Assembly (NCBI RefSeq): GCF_000515415.1
Contig: NZ_KI911783.1
Location: 7,675,831 to 7,739,830 of the forward strand
Origin: Bradyrhizobium sp. WSM1417
Lineage (GTDB): Bacteria > Pseudomonadota > Alphaproteobacteria > Rhizobiales > Xanthobacteraceae
Length of the DNA stretch: 64,000 nt
Direction: 5' to 3'
Shown: piece after piece, positions 5,481-10,514 of the stretch
Layout: each line of letters begins with the position of its first letter
Position numbering within the stretch: the first letter of the stretch is position 1
The notes under the pieces: generated by a model
The model's database searches: none
What the model was told of the DNA's origin: nothing
What the model saw: the letters and a program-made list of their open reading frames with translations, nothing else
Program-made: the position numbers and the translations under genes

Positions 5481-6608
5481 CTATTGCACCAGATCGGCAA
5501 CGATGGTCGCGGCCTTGAGGCCGGTGCCGGTGAGGACCGCGACCGTGGTCTCGTTCGCCTTGATGGCACCGGTGGCGGATAGTTTGTCCAGCGCGGCGGC
5601 AGCACTGGCGCTGGTCGGCTCGGCGAACAGGCCCTGCCGCGCAAGGCGCCGCAGCGCGGCGACGATCTCATCCTCGGTGAGTGCGACGGTGCCGCCGCCG
5701 CTCTCGCGCAACGCGCCGATGATCTCGCGCAGACGCAGCGGATGCTTGATCGCGGTGCCTTCGGCGATGGTCTTGTTCACCTCGCGCGCGACAGGCGTGT
5801 CGAGGCCCGCCTTGAAGCTCGCATCGATCGGCGAGCAATTGAGCGGCTGTGCCGCAAACAGGCGCGGCAGCCTGGTGATCTGACCGGCTTTCAACAGCTC
5901 ACGGAAACCAAAGGCGCAACCCAAAAGGCTGCTGCCGGCGCCGACCGGGACGATGACGTTGTCGGGGGCGCGGAAGCCGAGATCTTCCCAGATCTCATAG
6001 GCGAGCGACTTGGTGCCTTCGAGGAAGAACGGTTGCCAGTTGTGGCTGGCATAGAAGGTCTGGCTCGACTGCCGGATGGCCTCGGCCTCCGATTCCTCGC
6101 GCGGGCCCTCGACCAGCTGCACCGCGGCGCCATAGGCGCGGACCTGCGCGATCTTGGCCGGTGACGTCGATGCAGGCGCGAGGATCTTCACGCGCATGCC
6201 GCCGGCGGCACCTAACCCCGCCATCGACGAGCCGCCATTGCCGGACGAGTCCTCCAGAATGGCCTCGACGCCGATCTGACGAAGGAAGGACAGCATTACG
6301 GCGGAGCCCCGGTCCTTGAAGCTGCCGGTCGGGTTGAACCATTCGAGCTTGAAGAACGGGCGCAGCTCGCCCCAGGCCTGCTGCACCAGCGGCGTGCAGC
6401 CTTCGCCGAGCGTGATCGGAGTCTTGATCTCGACCGGCAGCGCCGCCCGGTAGCGCCAGAGCGAGCGCGCCCGGCCGTCGATGTCCTCGCGCGACATCCC
6501 TGCCCCCGGCGTCACCAGCAGCGGCGTGCGCTCATCCGAGCACCAGCGCGGCTGGTCCAGCGGATAGAGGTTACCGTTGCGAGGGTCGATGTAGGCGGCG
6601 GCGGACAT
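5481..6608 (-). CDS. Threonine synthase-like PLP-dependent enzyme
   Basis: 375 residues from ATG 6608. It is a fold-type II PLP enzyme. The PLP lysine lies in TGSFKDRGSAVML. A GNGGSSMAGLGAAGG segment looks like the substrate/phosphate loop, and VPVGAGSSLLG is a second glycine-rich loop. At about 375 residues it fits the shorter threonine synthase-type branch rather than the approximately 470-residue E. coli-like ThrC, so it may act on another hydroxy-amino acid. It is divergent from the URC cluster with 387 bases between the starts, so the two units could share regulatory DNA. Specificity is not resolved. Confidence 0.75.
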   Translation of the reverse strand: MSAAAYIDPRNGNLYPLDQPRWCSDERTPLLVTPGAGMSREDIDGRARSLWRYRAALPVEIKTPITLGEGCTPLVQQAWGELRPFFKLEWFNPTGSFKDRGSAVMLSFLRQIGVEAILEDSSGNGGSSMAGLGAAGGMRVKILAPASTSPAKIAQVRAYGAAVQLVEGPREESEAEAIRQSSQTFYASHNWQPFFLEGTKSLAYEIWEDLGFRAPDNVIVPVGAGSSLLGCAFGFRELLKAGQITRLPRLFAAQPLNCSPIDASFKAGLDTPVAREVNKTIAEGTAIKHPLRLREIIGALRESGGGTVALTEDEIVAALRRLARQGLFAEPTSASAAAALDKLSATGAIKANETTVAVLTGTGLKAATIVADLVQ

Positions 6609-6868
6609 GGCGGTCTCCAAGGAAGGCGATAGGGCAAAGGCGATCCGTACGTTGGGTTTGATGACACGTTTTGTCCGGAAACTCGACGCCCGCCACGCAA
6701 GCCGTGCGGCGCCTCTTGAAAACTCGAAAACCATAATTACTTCATCAGCTTACACCGATGGCGACGAGCTCCGCCAGTGCAGTGGCGTGGCATTCGGGCA
6801 AGCGCTGCCGGGTCGCGGGACGACGGGAATTTGGCCGCGAGCCGCCCTGCCCTGCGCAGCACGATTAA

Positions 6869-6896
6869 CTTGTCTGTCGCGACTGCCCGCTACAAT
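6869..6896 (+). promoter_or_regulatory. Candidate promoter of the urc cluster
   Basis: CTTGTC at 6869-6874 and TACAAT at 6891-6896 are separated by 16 bases, close to the rhizobial housekeeping pattern (CTTGAC/CTATAT-like). This places transcription start near 6903 and gives a leader of about 92 bases before the urc1 ATG at 6996. The rest of the intergenic stretch (6609-6868) shows nothing else I can name. Confidence 0.45.
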
Positions 6897-6911
6897 ATGT
6901 TGGATTGAGCT

Positions 6912-6942
6912 CGCGCCGCCGGTGTTCCGCATCGGCAGCGCG
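6912..6942 (+). other. First leader hairpin upstream of urc1
   Basis: CGCGC pairs with GCGCG, then after one C-A mismatch GCCG pairs with CGGC. The loop is 11 bases (GTGTTCCGCAT). It begins about ten bases after the predicted transcription start and ends three bases before the terminator-like hairpin. Confidence 0.5.
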
Positions 6943-6945
6943 ACG

Positions 6946-6983
6946 AGCCAAGGCCCGTCCGAGCGGCGGGCCGTTGGCTTTTT
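6946..6983 (+). terminator. Intrinsic-terminator-like hairpin in the urc1 leader
   Basis: AGCCAA/TTGGCT and GGCCCG/CGGGCC form a 12-bp stem with a single bulged G and a 9-base loop. Five T residues (6979-6983) follow at once. The urc1 ribosome site GGGAG starts at 6984 and ATG at 6996. No plus-strand gene lies upstream before position 4536, so the site does not terminate a known gene. An attenuator for urc1, or the end of a short RNA, are the obvious readings. Confidence 0.6.
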
Positions 6984-6995
6984 GGGAGTTTGGTC

Positions 6996-8252
6996 ATGAG
7001 CCGCGCGAACCGTACCGACCACATCCGCCTCACCTCCCATCCGGAGCCGGGCCGGACAGCCGCATTCCCGATCCACTGGGGCGCCGCCGATGCACGCGCC
7101 CGCGGACCGATCATCGGCACGGTGTCGCGCGCCGGGGATCGCAACGTGATCGGCAGCCATGGCGGCTCCTATGCGATGTACCGCGCGCTCGCGGTGTCCG
7201 CCGGCGCGCTCGATCCGATCCGGCGTCCTGACCTCACCAACACCTTTCCGGCCGCGACCATCGGCCCGTTCCCGCAGTGGAGCGATCCCGCCAAGATCGT
7301 CGCGCTCGATCCCTGGGGGCATCTCGTCGCCGAGAATTTCGGCAAGGACATCGCCGAGGGCATCGACATCAGGCCGAGCATCGCGGTGACGCGTGCGCGG
7401 CTGGACCTGCCGGAGATCCGCGAGGCGCTCGCGGCCAAGCGCCTGCGCGCCGACGGCGACGTCGTGCACGCCAATGGCAGCGTGTCGGTGGTGAAGATCG
7501 CGATCGATCCGGTCTGGTATCTGCCGGGCCTTGCGGAGCGCTTCGCGACCAATGAGACCGAGCTGCGGCGCACGCTATTCGAGCAGACCGCCGGCATGTT
7601 CCCCGAGCTGGTGACCCGGCCGGACATGAAGGTGTTTCTGCCGCCGATCGGCGGCACCACCGTCTACATGTTCGGCGACGTCACCAAGTTGCCGGACCAT
7701 CGCACCAAGATCACCTGCCGCGTGCATGACGAGTGCAACGGCTCCGACGTGTTCGGCTCCGACATCTGCACCTGCCGCCCCTACCTCATTCACGGCATCG
7801 AGGAATCCGCGCGTGGCGCGCAGGAGGGCGGGCTCGGGCTCGTGATCTACAACCGCAAGGAAGGCCGCGCGCTCGGCGAGGTCACCAAATTCCTGGTCTA
7901 CAATGCGCGCAAGCGCCAGGAGGACGGCGATGCCGCCGCCGCCTATTTCGAGCGCACCGAATGCGTTGCCGGCGTCCAGGACGCGCGCTTCCAGCAATTG
8001 ATGCCCGACACCATTCATTGGCTGGGCCTGAAGCGCATCGACCGCTTCCTGTCGATGAGCGACATGAAGCATGACGCGCTGACCTCGCAGGGCATCGACA
8101 TCGTCGAGCGCGTGCCGATCCCGCCCGAGCTCATTCCCGCCGACGCCTATGTCGAGATCGCCGCGAAAAAGGCCGCCGGCTATTACTCCACCGACATCGC
8201 GCCGGAGAAGGACGTCGACGGCGTGGTCGGGCGTTCGCTGGAAAAATACTGA
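6996..8252 (+). CDS. urc1: GTP cyclohydrolase II-like protein Urc1 of the URC uracil-degradation pathway
   Basis: 418 residues from ATG 6996, with GGGAG seven bases upstream. The C-terminal half is a RibA-type domain. The zinc ligands Cys247-x10-Cys258-x-Cys260 keep the exact RibA spacing. QDARF (Asp329, Arg331) matches the catalytic D-x-R of RibA. NRKEGRALGE replaces the usual EGRGIGL loop. The N-terminal 200 residues are not a DHBP synthase domain. This long RibA-like form next to DUF1688 and a UPRT homologue is the arrangement of yeast URC1/URC4/URC6, which degrade uracil without the reductive route. No riboflavin genes are nearby, so flavin synthesis is unlikely. The gene ends 7 bases before the next one. 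Confidence 0.85.
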   Translation: MSRANRTDHIRLTSHPEPGRTAAFPIHWGAADARARGPIIGTVSRAGDRNVIGSHGGSYAMYRALAVSAGALDPIRRPDLTNTFPAATIGPFPQWSDPAKIVALDPWGHLVAENFGKDIAEGIDIRPSIAVTRARLDLPEIREALAAKRLRADGDVVHANGSVSVVKIAIDPVWYLPGLAERFATNETELRRTLFEQTAGMFPELVTRPDMKVFLPPIGGTTVYMFGDVTKLPDHRTKITCRVHDECNGSDVFGSDICTCRPYLIHGIEESARGAQEGGLGLVIYNRKEGRALGEVTKFLVYNARKRQEDGDAAAAYFERTECVAGVQDARFQQLMPDTIHWLGLKRIDRFLSMSDMKHDALTSQGIDIVERVPIPPELIPADAYVEIAAKKAAGYYSTDIAPEKDVDGVVGRSLEKY

Positions 8253-8259
8253 TCGATTG

Positions 8260-9498
8260 ATGGCAGACGCTCTGGAATTGCAGGCCCGTTCGCTGCTCAG
8301 CGCAGCAGCGGTTCGCGCGCGTGCCGGCGAGATGTTCGAGATCGGCCTGAACGGCGGGCTGACGCATTTCACGATCGATCTCGATCGCATGGATGGCGTT
8401 GCCGACGCCGTGCTCGCGGTGACGCGCGAGGCCTATCCGACGCTGGAGATTCCGTTCCATGCGCGCTGGCGGCATTTCGTGCTCGGCGGTGTCGACCGTT
8501 GGGCGCGGCTTGCGGATTCGGCGTCGTGGACCGATCGCGCGGCGCGAGCGCGGGCGGAGTTCGACCTTGCCATCGTCAGCGTGCTGCTCGATGCCGGCGC
8601 GGGGGCGGCGTGGCGATATCGCGACGCCGTGACGGGACAGAGCATCGGCCGATCCGAAGGACTCGCGATTGCAAGCCTCGACATGTTCGCGAGCGGTCTT
8701 TTCTCCCGCGATCCCCGCGCACCTTTCAGGGCCGATGCCGACGTGCTCGCGCACCTGCCGCTCGCCGCGCTCACATCCGCTTTTCAGGTGAGCGATGCCA
8801 ATCCGCTGCTCGGGCTCGAGGGGCGGATCGATCTGCTGCGACGCCTGGGCAAGCTGGTGACGGAGCGCGCGGACGTGTTCGGCGCGCACGATACGCCGCG
8901 GCCGGGCGGGTTGTTCGATCACATCGCGGCACAGGCCAAGGGCGGCGCGATTCCCGCGCCCGCGATTCTCTCGGCGGTGCTGAACCAGCTCGGACCGATC
9001 TGGCCATCGCGGCTCGAGCTTGCCGGGATTCCGCTCGGCGATTGCTGGCGCCATCCGGCGATCAAGGCCAGCGATGCGACCGCGGGCCTCGTGCCCCTGC
9101 ACAAGCTGTCGCAATGGCTGAGCTATTCGCTGATCGAGCCGCTCCAGCGTGCCGGGTTTGACGTCACCGACATCGACGGCCTGACCGGGCTTGCCGAATA
9201 CCGCAATGGCGGCCTGTTCGTCGATCACGAGCTGCTGCGCCTGCGCGACGCCGCTGACGCTGAGCGTGCGCATGCGGTGGACTCCCTGCTCGTCGTCGAG
9301 TGGCGCGCGCTGACCGTGGCGCTGCTGGACCGGCTCGCCGAACTGGTCCGCGCCAAACTCGGCCGCACTCCTGAGACATTGCCGCTCGCCAGCATTCTGG
9401 AAGGCGGCACCTGGGCCGCGGGCCGCGCCATCGCCTTCGCGCGCCGCCCCGACGGTTCGCCGCCGCTCAAGGTGATCAGCGACGGCACGGTGTTCTAG
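8260..9498 (+). CDS. urc4: DUF1688 family protein, Urc4 homologue
   Basis: 412 residues from ATG 8260, seven bases after urc1 stops, so the two are almost surely cotranscribed. The N-terminus ([19 protein letters not shown], then [11 protein letters not shown]) and the [13 protein letters not shown] segment fit DUF1688 as I know it. The family is found in fungi (URC4) and in bacteria beside RibA-like and UPRT genes. It is required for uracil catabolism in Lachancea kluyveri, but its chemistry is not settled. It has no signal peptide or membrane span, so it is cytosolic. The C-terminal [15 protein letters not shown] stretch is glycine-rich and may bind substrate; that is inference. Confidence 0.85.
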
Positions 9499-9524
9499 TC
9501 TCTCGTTCGAGTTCGCGGAAACAG

Positions 9525-9577
9525 ACCCCTCATCCGGCGCTTCGCGCCACCTTCTCCCACAAGGGGAGAAGGGAGAA
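9525..9577. repeat. Palindromic intergenic repeat (family D)
   Basis: CCCTCATCCGGCGCTTCGCG followed by CTTCTCCCACAAGGGGAGAAG, a hairpin between urc4 and the upp-like gene. A degenerate half copy is at 4543-4565. It may stabilise or partly terminate the urc1-urc4 message before the third gene. Confidence 0.65.
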
Positions 9578-9593
9578 AGCAAGAGCACCCGTC

Positions 9594-10223
9594 ATGCAAG
9601 GCGTCACGATCGTCGATCATCCGCTGGTGCAGCACAAGCTGACCCTGGTGCGGGACAAATCGATCTCGACCAAATCGTTTCGGGAGCTGATCAAGGAGAT
9701 CGGCATGCTGCTGTGCTACGAGGTGACGCGCGACCTGCCGCTCGCCGATACCGTCATCGAAACGCCGCTGGCGACGATGCATTCGGCCAAGATCGCGGGC
9801 AAGAAGCTGGTCTTCGTACCGATGCTGCGCGCCGGCACCACCTTCGTCGACGGCATGATGGATCTGGTGCCGACCGCGCGCGTCGCACATATCGGCCTCT
9901 ATCGTGAGCCGCACAGCTTTGCGGCGGTCGAGTACTTCTTCAAATCCCCATCCGATCTCGGCGAACGCCTGGCGATCGTGGTCACGCCGGTGGTTGCGAC
10001 CGCCAATACGGCTGTGGCCGCGATCGATCGGCTGAAGGAGCGCGGCGCCAAGGACATTCGCCTCGCCTGCCTGATCGCCGCCCCCGAAGGGCTCGAACGG
10101 CTGCGCGGACTGCATCCGGACGTCCCGATCTGGACGGCCGCGGTCGACGAAGGTCTCGACGAGAACGGTTTCATTTTGCCGGGCCTTGGCGACGCCGGCG
10201 ACCGCGCCTACGGGACGAGATAG
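9594..10223 (+). CDS. Uracil phosphoribosyltransferase-like protein (Urc6) with altered PRPP loop
   Basis: 209 residues, the normal UPRT length. Most UPRT signatures are present: [14 protein letters not shown] (73-88), [12 protein letters not shown], and the uracil-binding C-terminus [18 protein letters not shown]. The PRPP-binding loop, normally DPMLATGGS, reads TPVVATANT at 131-139. The acidic residue and both glycines are gone. This could weaken PRPP binding or signal another ribosyl donor. In the yeast URC pathway, Urc6 is a UPRT homologue (FUR1), so the position after urc1-urc4 fits that role. It follows urc4 by 95 bases containing a repeat. It may be cotranscribed with urc4 or have its own promoter. 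Confidence 0.8.
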
Positions 10224-10301
10224 GCGCCGGCCTGCAAACCGCGTCACGTTAGGAACAGCTTCGCCCGCGCAAGGTTTTCCTGCTCTACGATGGAGAGTAC
10301 G

Positions 10302-10514
10302 ATGACCTATCAGGATGACGACCGCAGGGTAGACAGAGCACGCCGCAACAGCCCGGTGGGCTGGGCGATCGGCGCGATCTTCGTGATCGCCGTGGTCGCG
10401 GCCGTCTTCTTCTACAATGGACGCGACGTCGGTCCGCAGACCACGACCACCAGCCCGAACAACGCGCCGAGCGTCACCACGGGCTCAACCAATCCGGCCG
10501 CCCCGGCAAAGTGA
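10302..10514 (+). CDS. Small single-span membrane protein
   Basis: 70 residues from ATG 10302, with a GGAGAG ribosome site starting at 10292. An ATG at 10290 is upstream of that site and is less likely. A short charged N-terminus (DDDRRVDRARR) is followed by one transmembrane helix (VGWAIGAIFVIAVVAAVFFY) and a Thr/Ser/Pro-rich tail. The topology is probably N-in with the tail in the periplasm. I do not recognise a family. It is convergent with the DUF305 gene, 16 bases away. Confidence 0.65.
   Translation: MTYQDDDRRVDRARRNSPVGWAIGAIFVIAVVAAVFFYNGRDVGPQTTTTSPNNAPSVTTGSTNPAAPAK

Follow-up and report, generated by a model that had tools for sequence, protein, structure and literature searches.

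What do three consecutive genes of Bradyrhizobium sp. WSM1417 do, and how might they be controlled? The genes lie at positions 6,996 to 10,223 of the window, by which we mean the whole 64,000-nucleotide stretch analyzed here (contig NZ_KI911783.1, positions 7,675,831 to 7,739,830, forward strand), and a reading made from the sequence alone had taken them for a bacterial version of the URC1-URC4-URC6 set of yeast uracil catabolism. URC is one of four routes of uracil breakdown listed in the available text of PMC12507026. In yeast, according to the available part of PMC7530994, Urc1 and Urc6 yield ribosylurea and 3-hydroxypropionate by uncharacterized steps, and Urc4 converts ribosylurea to urea. 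The available part of PMC2174524 describes S. pombe urg1-urg2-urg3 as a cluster of the same three families that is induced by uracil. We are fairly confident that urc1-urc4-urc6 is a URC-type uracil-catabolic operon, predicted to have its own promoter, an attenuator leader and a remodeled Urc6.

Three co-directional genes make up a URC-type set

The three genes follow one another on the same strand, as the sequence-only reading had it:

6996-8252, + strand: urc1, ATG at 6996 and stop codon at 8250-8252, 418 amino acids; GTP-cyclohydrolase-II fold plus a GTP_CH_N domain
8260-9498, + strand: urc4, ATG at 8260 and stop codon ending at 9498, 412 amino acids; DUF1688 protein of the URC4/urg3 family
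9594-10223, + strand: urc6, 209 amino acids; paralogue of uracil phosphoribosyltransferase (UPRT) with an altered phosphoribosyl pyrophosphate (PRPP) loop (T131) and with T83, V133, N191 and F193

Profile searches place each product in its family. Urc1 matches PF12471 (GTP_CH_N) at 265 bits over residues 9-197 and PF00925 at 46.1 bits, with no DHBP domain reported; the urc4 product matches PF07958 (DUF1688) at 488.7 bits and the urc6 product PF14681 (UPRTase) at 238.4 bits. The 7 bases that the sequence-only reading had counted between urc1 and urc4 are found at 8253-8259, and 95 bases separate urc4 from urc6. A urc1-urc4 gap of at most 20 bases recurs in 88 of 112 loci, if the earliest in-frame start is assumed. 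The urc4-urc6 gap contains a palindromic stretch (window 9500-9590) that resembles a dispersed repeat; a 19-base probe taken from the palindrome occurs as a single copy within the window, and the repeat reading was dropped.

The arrangement is widely conserved. Among 117 loci, some of which are repeats of one genome and in which order was called with a simple gene caller, 108 keep the order urc1-urc4-urc6. The exceptions include two loci with urc6 elsewhere and divergent (L057, L168), one without urc6 within 13 kb (L060) and one at a contig end (L099). DUF1688 is present in 114 of 146 Bradyrhizobium genomes. In a sample of 398 genomes of the phylum, PF07958 occurs in 26 and PF12471 in the identical 26, neither family being found without the other, a count that is inflated by shared ancestry.

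In several lineages the neighboring genes point in the same direction. With one member scanned per protein cluster, we found a phosphopentomutase cluster near the urc genes in 12 loci, thymidine phosphorylase in 8, purine-nucleoside phosphorylase in 5, adenosine deaminase in 4 and cytidine deaminase in 3. In L066, urc6 is followed on the same strand by a RutR-like TetR regulator and then by a cytosine deaminase (823.1 bits against a cut-off of 438). In L067, a RutR-like regulator, assigned by cluster membership, lies directly downstream of urc6; both loci lack the P2 core of the leader described below.

Judged by family matches, gene order and co-occurrence, the three genes are one URC-type set, as had been proposed, with the link to the fungal URC proteins made through family names. 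The families Urc1, Urc4 and Urc6 are common by name to Lachancea kluyveri (available text of PMC7530994), a likening by family name in which Bradyrhizobium differs by having an operon with a leader and a Urc6 without the PRPP-loop aspartate. With the eukaryotic S. pombe urg cluster the set has in common a GTP cyclohydrolase II family protein, a UPRT-like protein and a DUF1688 protein (available text of PMC2174524), whereas the bacterial genes are co-directional and follow one leader.

A RibA-like Urc1 outside the RibA families

The description of Urc1 as RibA-like, with complete zinc and catalytic residues and no DHBP domain, stands. C247, C258, C260, E289, R291, Y302, D329 and R331 align with the corresponding residues of RibA (2bz0), which we take to serve zinc binding and catalysis, and the zinc cysteines and catalytic residues are invariant among 18 Urc1 proteins. 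Urc1 differs from RibA in its added GTP_CH_N domain and in its scores: it matches 2bz0 at 44.3 bits and PDB entries 7ej3/7eev at 576.6 bits over residues 8-415 (full length), and it stays far below the RibA cut-offs of TIGR00505 (48 against 205.85 bits) and NF001591 (57.4 against 148). By score, then, it is not a RibA, and the best matches are not the true riboflavin-pathway enzymes that would have refuted the sequence-only reading. Both 7ej3/7eev in the PDB and NCBIfam NF005536, which Urc1 matches at 746.8 bits, carry the name 'GTP cyclohydrolase II'.

A 2021 article by Zhang et al. in ACS Catal reportedly has 'UTP cyclohydrolase' (UTP, uridine triphosphate) in its title, and we infer that 7ej3/7eev belong to that work. 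Urc1 is probably of this type, the likeness being one of sequence. The sequence-only reading had called the chemistry of Urc1 and Urc4 unsettled; the 2021 title suggests that it is less open for Urc1, while several of the yeast steps were described as uncharacterized in 2020.

We also asked what else could supply RibA. The only other PF00925 match in the genome is a protein (L183:2952-4250, contig C1 near 3.225 Mb) whose RibB half exceeds the TIGR00506 cut-off and whose RibA half lacks the zinc cysteines and the EGR motif; archaeal-type GTP cyclohydrolase III was not found in this genome. Our survey then took in 40 Bradyrhizobium genomes: from the 32 that lack DUF1688 we used 20 (5 of them less than 96% complete), and from the 114 that have it another 20. 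A PF00925 match at 178-207 bits counted as a canonical-scoring RibA. Only four genomes have one (G009, G019, G025, G045), and the PF00925 search found none in the other 36. Thirty PF00925 loci fetched from the survey comprise 26 of the RibB type without a zinc motif and 4 with it. Additional PF00925 matches at 75 bits occur in G002 and G005. Because both Urc1 and a canonical-scoring RibA are missing from 18 of the 20 urc-lacking genomes, Urc1 is not a general supplier of RibA activity. The first riboflavin enzyme of most surveyed Bradyrhizobium is not evident.

Urc6 is a remodeled paralogue of UPRT

The sequence-only reading had described the third protein as UPRT-like, and the family match is borne out: Urc6 exceeds the TIGR01091 cut-off (248.7 against 208.35) and aligns without gaps to UPRT 1i5e over residues 4-209, keeping the uracil loop GLGDAGD, R79 and R104. 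That Urc6 works as a UPRT is not to be assumed, however, as D131 is lost in this clade. Relative to 1i5e, Urc6 has T131 for D131, T83 for G83, V133 for M133, N191 for H191 and F193 for Y193. Asp131 (1i5e numbering) is, we presume, the PRPP-loop residue that serves PRPP binding.

The substitutions at 83, 131 and 133 go together. Among 103 distinct urc-cluster Urc6 rows, position 131 is D in 42, T, S, A or V in 58, N in 2 and H in 1. Leaving out the three N and H rows (L069, L169, L170), all 58 rows of the T/S/A/V group have T83 together with V or I133, whereas all 42 D131 rows have M133 and G, S or A83. Among the 120 database proteins nearest to Urc6, T83 and V133 are universal and position 131 is T or A; those that bear a name are called UPRT. 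A quick tree built from 107 rows, with SH-aLRT as its only support measure, sets the 103 urc-cluster proteins apart from four rows of Upp type (support 100). A 62-row clade (98) contains all 58 rows with the P2 core, and nested in it is a 58-row clade (93) without D131. Both clades persist when the changed loops are removed (support 98 and 71). At least three changes between D and non-D at 131 are needed, the other two being N in L069/L169 and H in L170.

The remodeled protein is under constraint. In 13 hand-picked loci compared with the window by simple counting, with several dS values near or above 1, the median pN/pS is 0.166 for urc6, 0.206 for urc1 and 0.359 for urc4; the low value indicates that urc6 is not decaying. 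The genome also encodes a separate canonical Upp that is 60% identical to Urc6. In L087, L126 and L151, an extra upp with D131 adjoins urc1 divergently, and a D131-less urc6 is retained downstream of urc4.

PyrR is a UPRT-related attenuation protein. By analogy, Urc6 could be a UPRT turned sensor: with no PRPP chemistry of its own, it would bind uridine monophosphate (UMP), UTP or an intermediate of the route and would govern read-through at the terminator of the urc leader. The likeness, a UPRT-family protein together with a leader terminator, is one of idea only, and we give the sensor little credence. The median net charge is -3.0 for D131-less Urc6 rows, compared with -2.0 where Urc6 has D131 and -0.9 in the Upp rows; it is not raised, and no charge shift toward RNA binding is seen. 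Four rows combine the P2 core with D131 (L148, L128, L062, L138), and four lack both (L126, L087, L088, L151). These mismatches and the absence of a basic shift make the sensor a long shot.

A conserved terminator-like leader precedes urc1

The built-in leader element, which the sequence-only reading had named without coordinates, was located as a hairpin at 6946-6979 with TTTTT at 6979-6983. The leader comprises the following elements:

6869-6874, + strand: predicted -35 element CTTGTC
6891-6896, + strand: predicted -10 element TACAAT, placing the RNA start near 6903
6911-6943, + strand: hairpin P1, with a variable loop and a stem with paired changes
6946-6983, + strand: terminator-like hairpin P2, a candidate attenuator, with its core at 6952-6972 and TTTTT at 6979-6983
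6984-6988, + strand: GGGAG, the likely ribosome-binding site of urc1, read off the sequence

The predicted promoter recurs: TACA(A/C/T)TAT stands at the proper distance in 40 leaders, all 40 of which have a CTTGT(C/T)-type -35 stretch with a 16-base spacer. A generic sigma-70 scan reported no promoter at the leader. The P2 core ends 23 bases before the urc1 ATG, and a GC-rich hairpin with a U run lies between the predicted promoter and the first gene. We regard P2 as a candidate attenuator.

Conservation is the stronger argument for P2, whose hairpin is itself only moderately beyond chance. The fold of 6890-7010 beats shuffled sequences moderately (z -2.51; 3 of 200 shuffles equally stable). 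When each leader was given a rough terminator score and compared with 20 shuffles of itself, the observed value was reached by 0-2 shuffles in 64 of 69 leaders with the core and by 3-11 in the other five. The core is present in 69 of 113 urc1 leaders, with a length of 21 or 22 bases, and its pattern occurs once in the 8.05-Mb genome (reversed control, 0); six of its eight pairs are invariant in 32 leaders of a wider set. A hairpin with at least three T in six bases precedes urc1 in 88 of 113 loci; for the other genes of these loci that have free sequence upstream, the figure is 76 of 669 (51 of 410 for the divergent ones), and the rows are not independent. In 29 of 294 control gene families, most members show such a hairpin. 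In Bosea, Methylobacterium, Microvirga and Caulobacter, several loci carry at about this position a hairpin with a different sequence and then a T run. The Brevundimonas-type loci (L061, L063, L146, L150, L154, L159) have another leader, mutually alike by eye, with two possible hairpins directly before urc1 and no T run.

Signs of covariation come from P1. In an alignment of P1 and P2 from 37 distinct leaders, 93.5% of cells are paired; in P1, changes on both strands of the stem are found at five pairs and in 24 cells, and none of 500 shuffles matches that cell count. The covariation score of 0.108 exceeds the 0.083 of shuffles (none of 500 reaches it) and the 0.040 or less of slid versions, although kinship alone can push sequences past shuffles without structure.

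Searching 150 genomes of the order with a P2 model gave no match in 88. Four genomes of the same genus each have one match, at 53-58 bits and adjoining urc1 by position; other genomes of the order reach at most 34.4 bits. The listing to E 0.01 has 64 such further matches, one of which, in G157, is on a different contig from urc. Nothing in 6600-10500 reaches an Rfam gathering score. Among three sub-threshold matches, RF02883 (BcKCsr2) overlaps the leader at 6879-6985 (18.4 bits against 40, E 0.55). By eye, 23 leader folds show no obvious classical antiterminator pairing upstream of P2. GGCTTT (window 6977-6990) can pair alternatively within P2 or with the GGGAG region, and in the GGGAG-region helix drawn by RNAalifold two pairs are G-U in 24 rows and G-C in 13.

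Weighing the alternatives

Uracil could also be broken down by other routes. The Rut pathway has uracil catabolism in common with URC, and a RutR-like regulator stands by the cluster in L066 (and, by cluster membership, L067); nine RutA family matches in this genome all fall below the cut-off, and we set the Rut pathway aside. Several observations weigh against our interpretation. Two dihydropyrimidinase-like proteins exceed the TIGR02033 cut-off and allow another uracil route; a dihydropyrimidine dehydrogenase was not found among the 8 frames scanned, themselves included, of 28 around them, the whole genome not having been searched for one. Five loci have urc4 without a called adjacent urc1 (L120, L130, L144, L152, L162), that of L120 having been overlooked by the gene caller and detected by tblastn. 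The RutR-like protein of L066 lies under the RutR cut-off (201.8 against 368 bits), and the neighbors in most loci are unrelated to pyrimidines, such as glycyl-tRNA synthetase in Bosea, or aminopeptidase and 2-keto-3-deoxy-galactonokinase in Microvirga-type loci. In 3 of the 13 pN/pS pairs (L086, L121, L122), urc6 is under weaker constraint than urc1. No hairpin of the kind described precedes urc1 in 25 of 113 leaders; the P2 core stem is invariant in the 37 leaders and hence has no covariation support; and two of five leader covariation measures do not exceed shuffles (110 of 500 reach the number of double-change pairs and 219 of 500 that of further pair types). Because most neighbors elsewhere are unrelated, we hold the URC interpretation slightly less firmly; the riboflavin and non-pyrimidine rivals discussed below gained slightly in weight. 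As to L130, L144, L152 and L162, from Enterovirga and a Rhizobiales bacterium, these have urc4, three of them with urc6, and no adjacent urc1, which may lie elsewhere in the genome.

Several rival explanations share part of this evidence. The one closest in probability concerns the leader: P2 might be a 5' stabilizing hairpin or a DNA operator palindrome and no attenuator, which we find doubtful though quite possible. An invariant core is what a protein site would show, but its length varies between 21 and 22 bases, several lineages have unrelated hairpins with T runs near the same place, and P1 carries RNA-type paired changes. Rather unlikely, in our judgment, is that Urc6 of this clade is a working UPRT that tolerates its loop changes. 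It passes the TIGR01091 cut-off and keeps GLGDAGD, R79 and R104; however, loss of D131 in 58 of 103 rows is always coupled with T83 and V or I133, an extra D131 upp adjoins urc1 in L087, L126 and L151, and this genome has its separate canonical Upp.

Two rivals remain. Urc1 as the riboflavin GTP cyclohydrolase II of the organism, as its sole or a second job, would fit its intact zinc and catalytic residues, the lack of both zinc cysteines and EGR from the RibA half of the one other PF00925 protein found in the genome, and the shared name of NF005536 and 7ej3/7eev. Set against its scores under the RibA cut-offs, its presence with Urc4 in 26 of 26 genomes and the 18 of 20 urc-lacking Bradyrhizobium genomes without Urc1 or a canonical-scoring RibA, this is very improbable, although individual strains may use it in this way. 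Least credible of all is that the three genes serve something other than pyrimidines: in Bradyrhizobium the neighbors are uninformative, the upstream genes encoding a pyridoxal phosphate enzyme and a methyltransferase, as are most neighbors elsewhere, but several lineages have nucleoside and cytosine genes close by. The S. pombe counterparts are, moreover, uracil-induced (available text of PMC2174524).

A model for the urc operon and its implications

In the URC interpretation, transcription would start at the operon's own promoter and run through a leader some 90 bases long, at whose end stands P2, an attenuator that would pass more transcription when the pyrimidine pool is high. Housekeeping Upp would turn uracil into UMP, which would go on to UTP. 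With its zinc, Urc1 would open the pyrimidine ring and remove the carbon bridge C4-C5-C6 between the ring nitrogens, leaving a ribosyl-urea nucleotide, a step modeled by analogy on the removal of C8 of guanosine triphosphate by RibA. Urc4 would then free urea from the Urc1 product. Urc6 of this clade would no longer be an ordinary PRPP-using transferase, and may act on or sense a ribosyl-phosphate compound of the route.

The genes very probably form a URC-type operon of an ordinary sort in which two features are unusual, the remodeled Urc6 and a terminator-like leader of its own. For Urc4, of which we found no solved structural relative by sequence, so compact an operon in a bacterium would make clean genetic work possible. 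Residues of the PRPP, pyrophosphate and uracil loops have changed together in a UPRT paralogue that is itself conserved, which means that the activity of Urc6 is not to be taken from its family, and the leader hairpin offers a specific candidate control element. If Urc6 were a sensor after all, the PyrR principle would have been invented independently a second time, here to serve breakdown and not synthesis.

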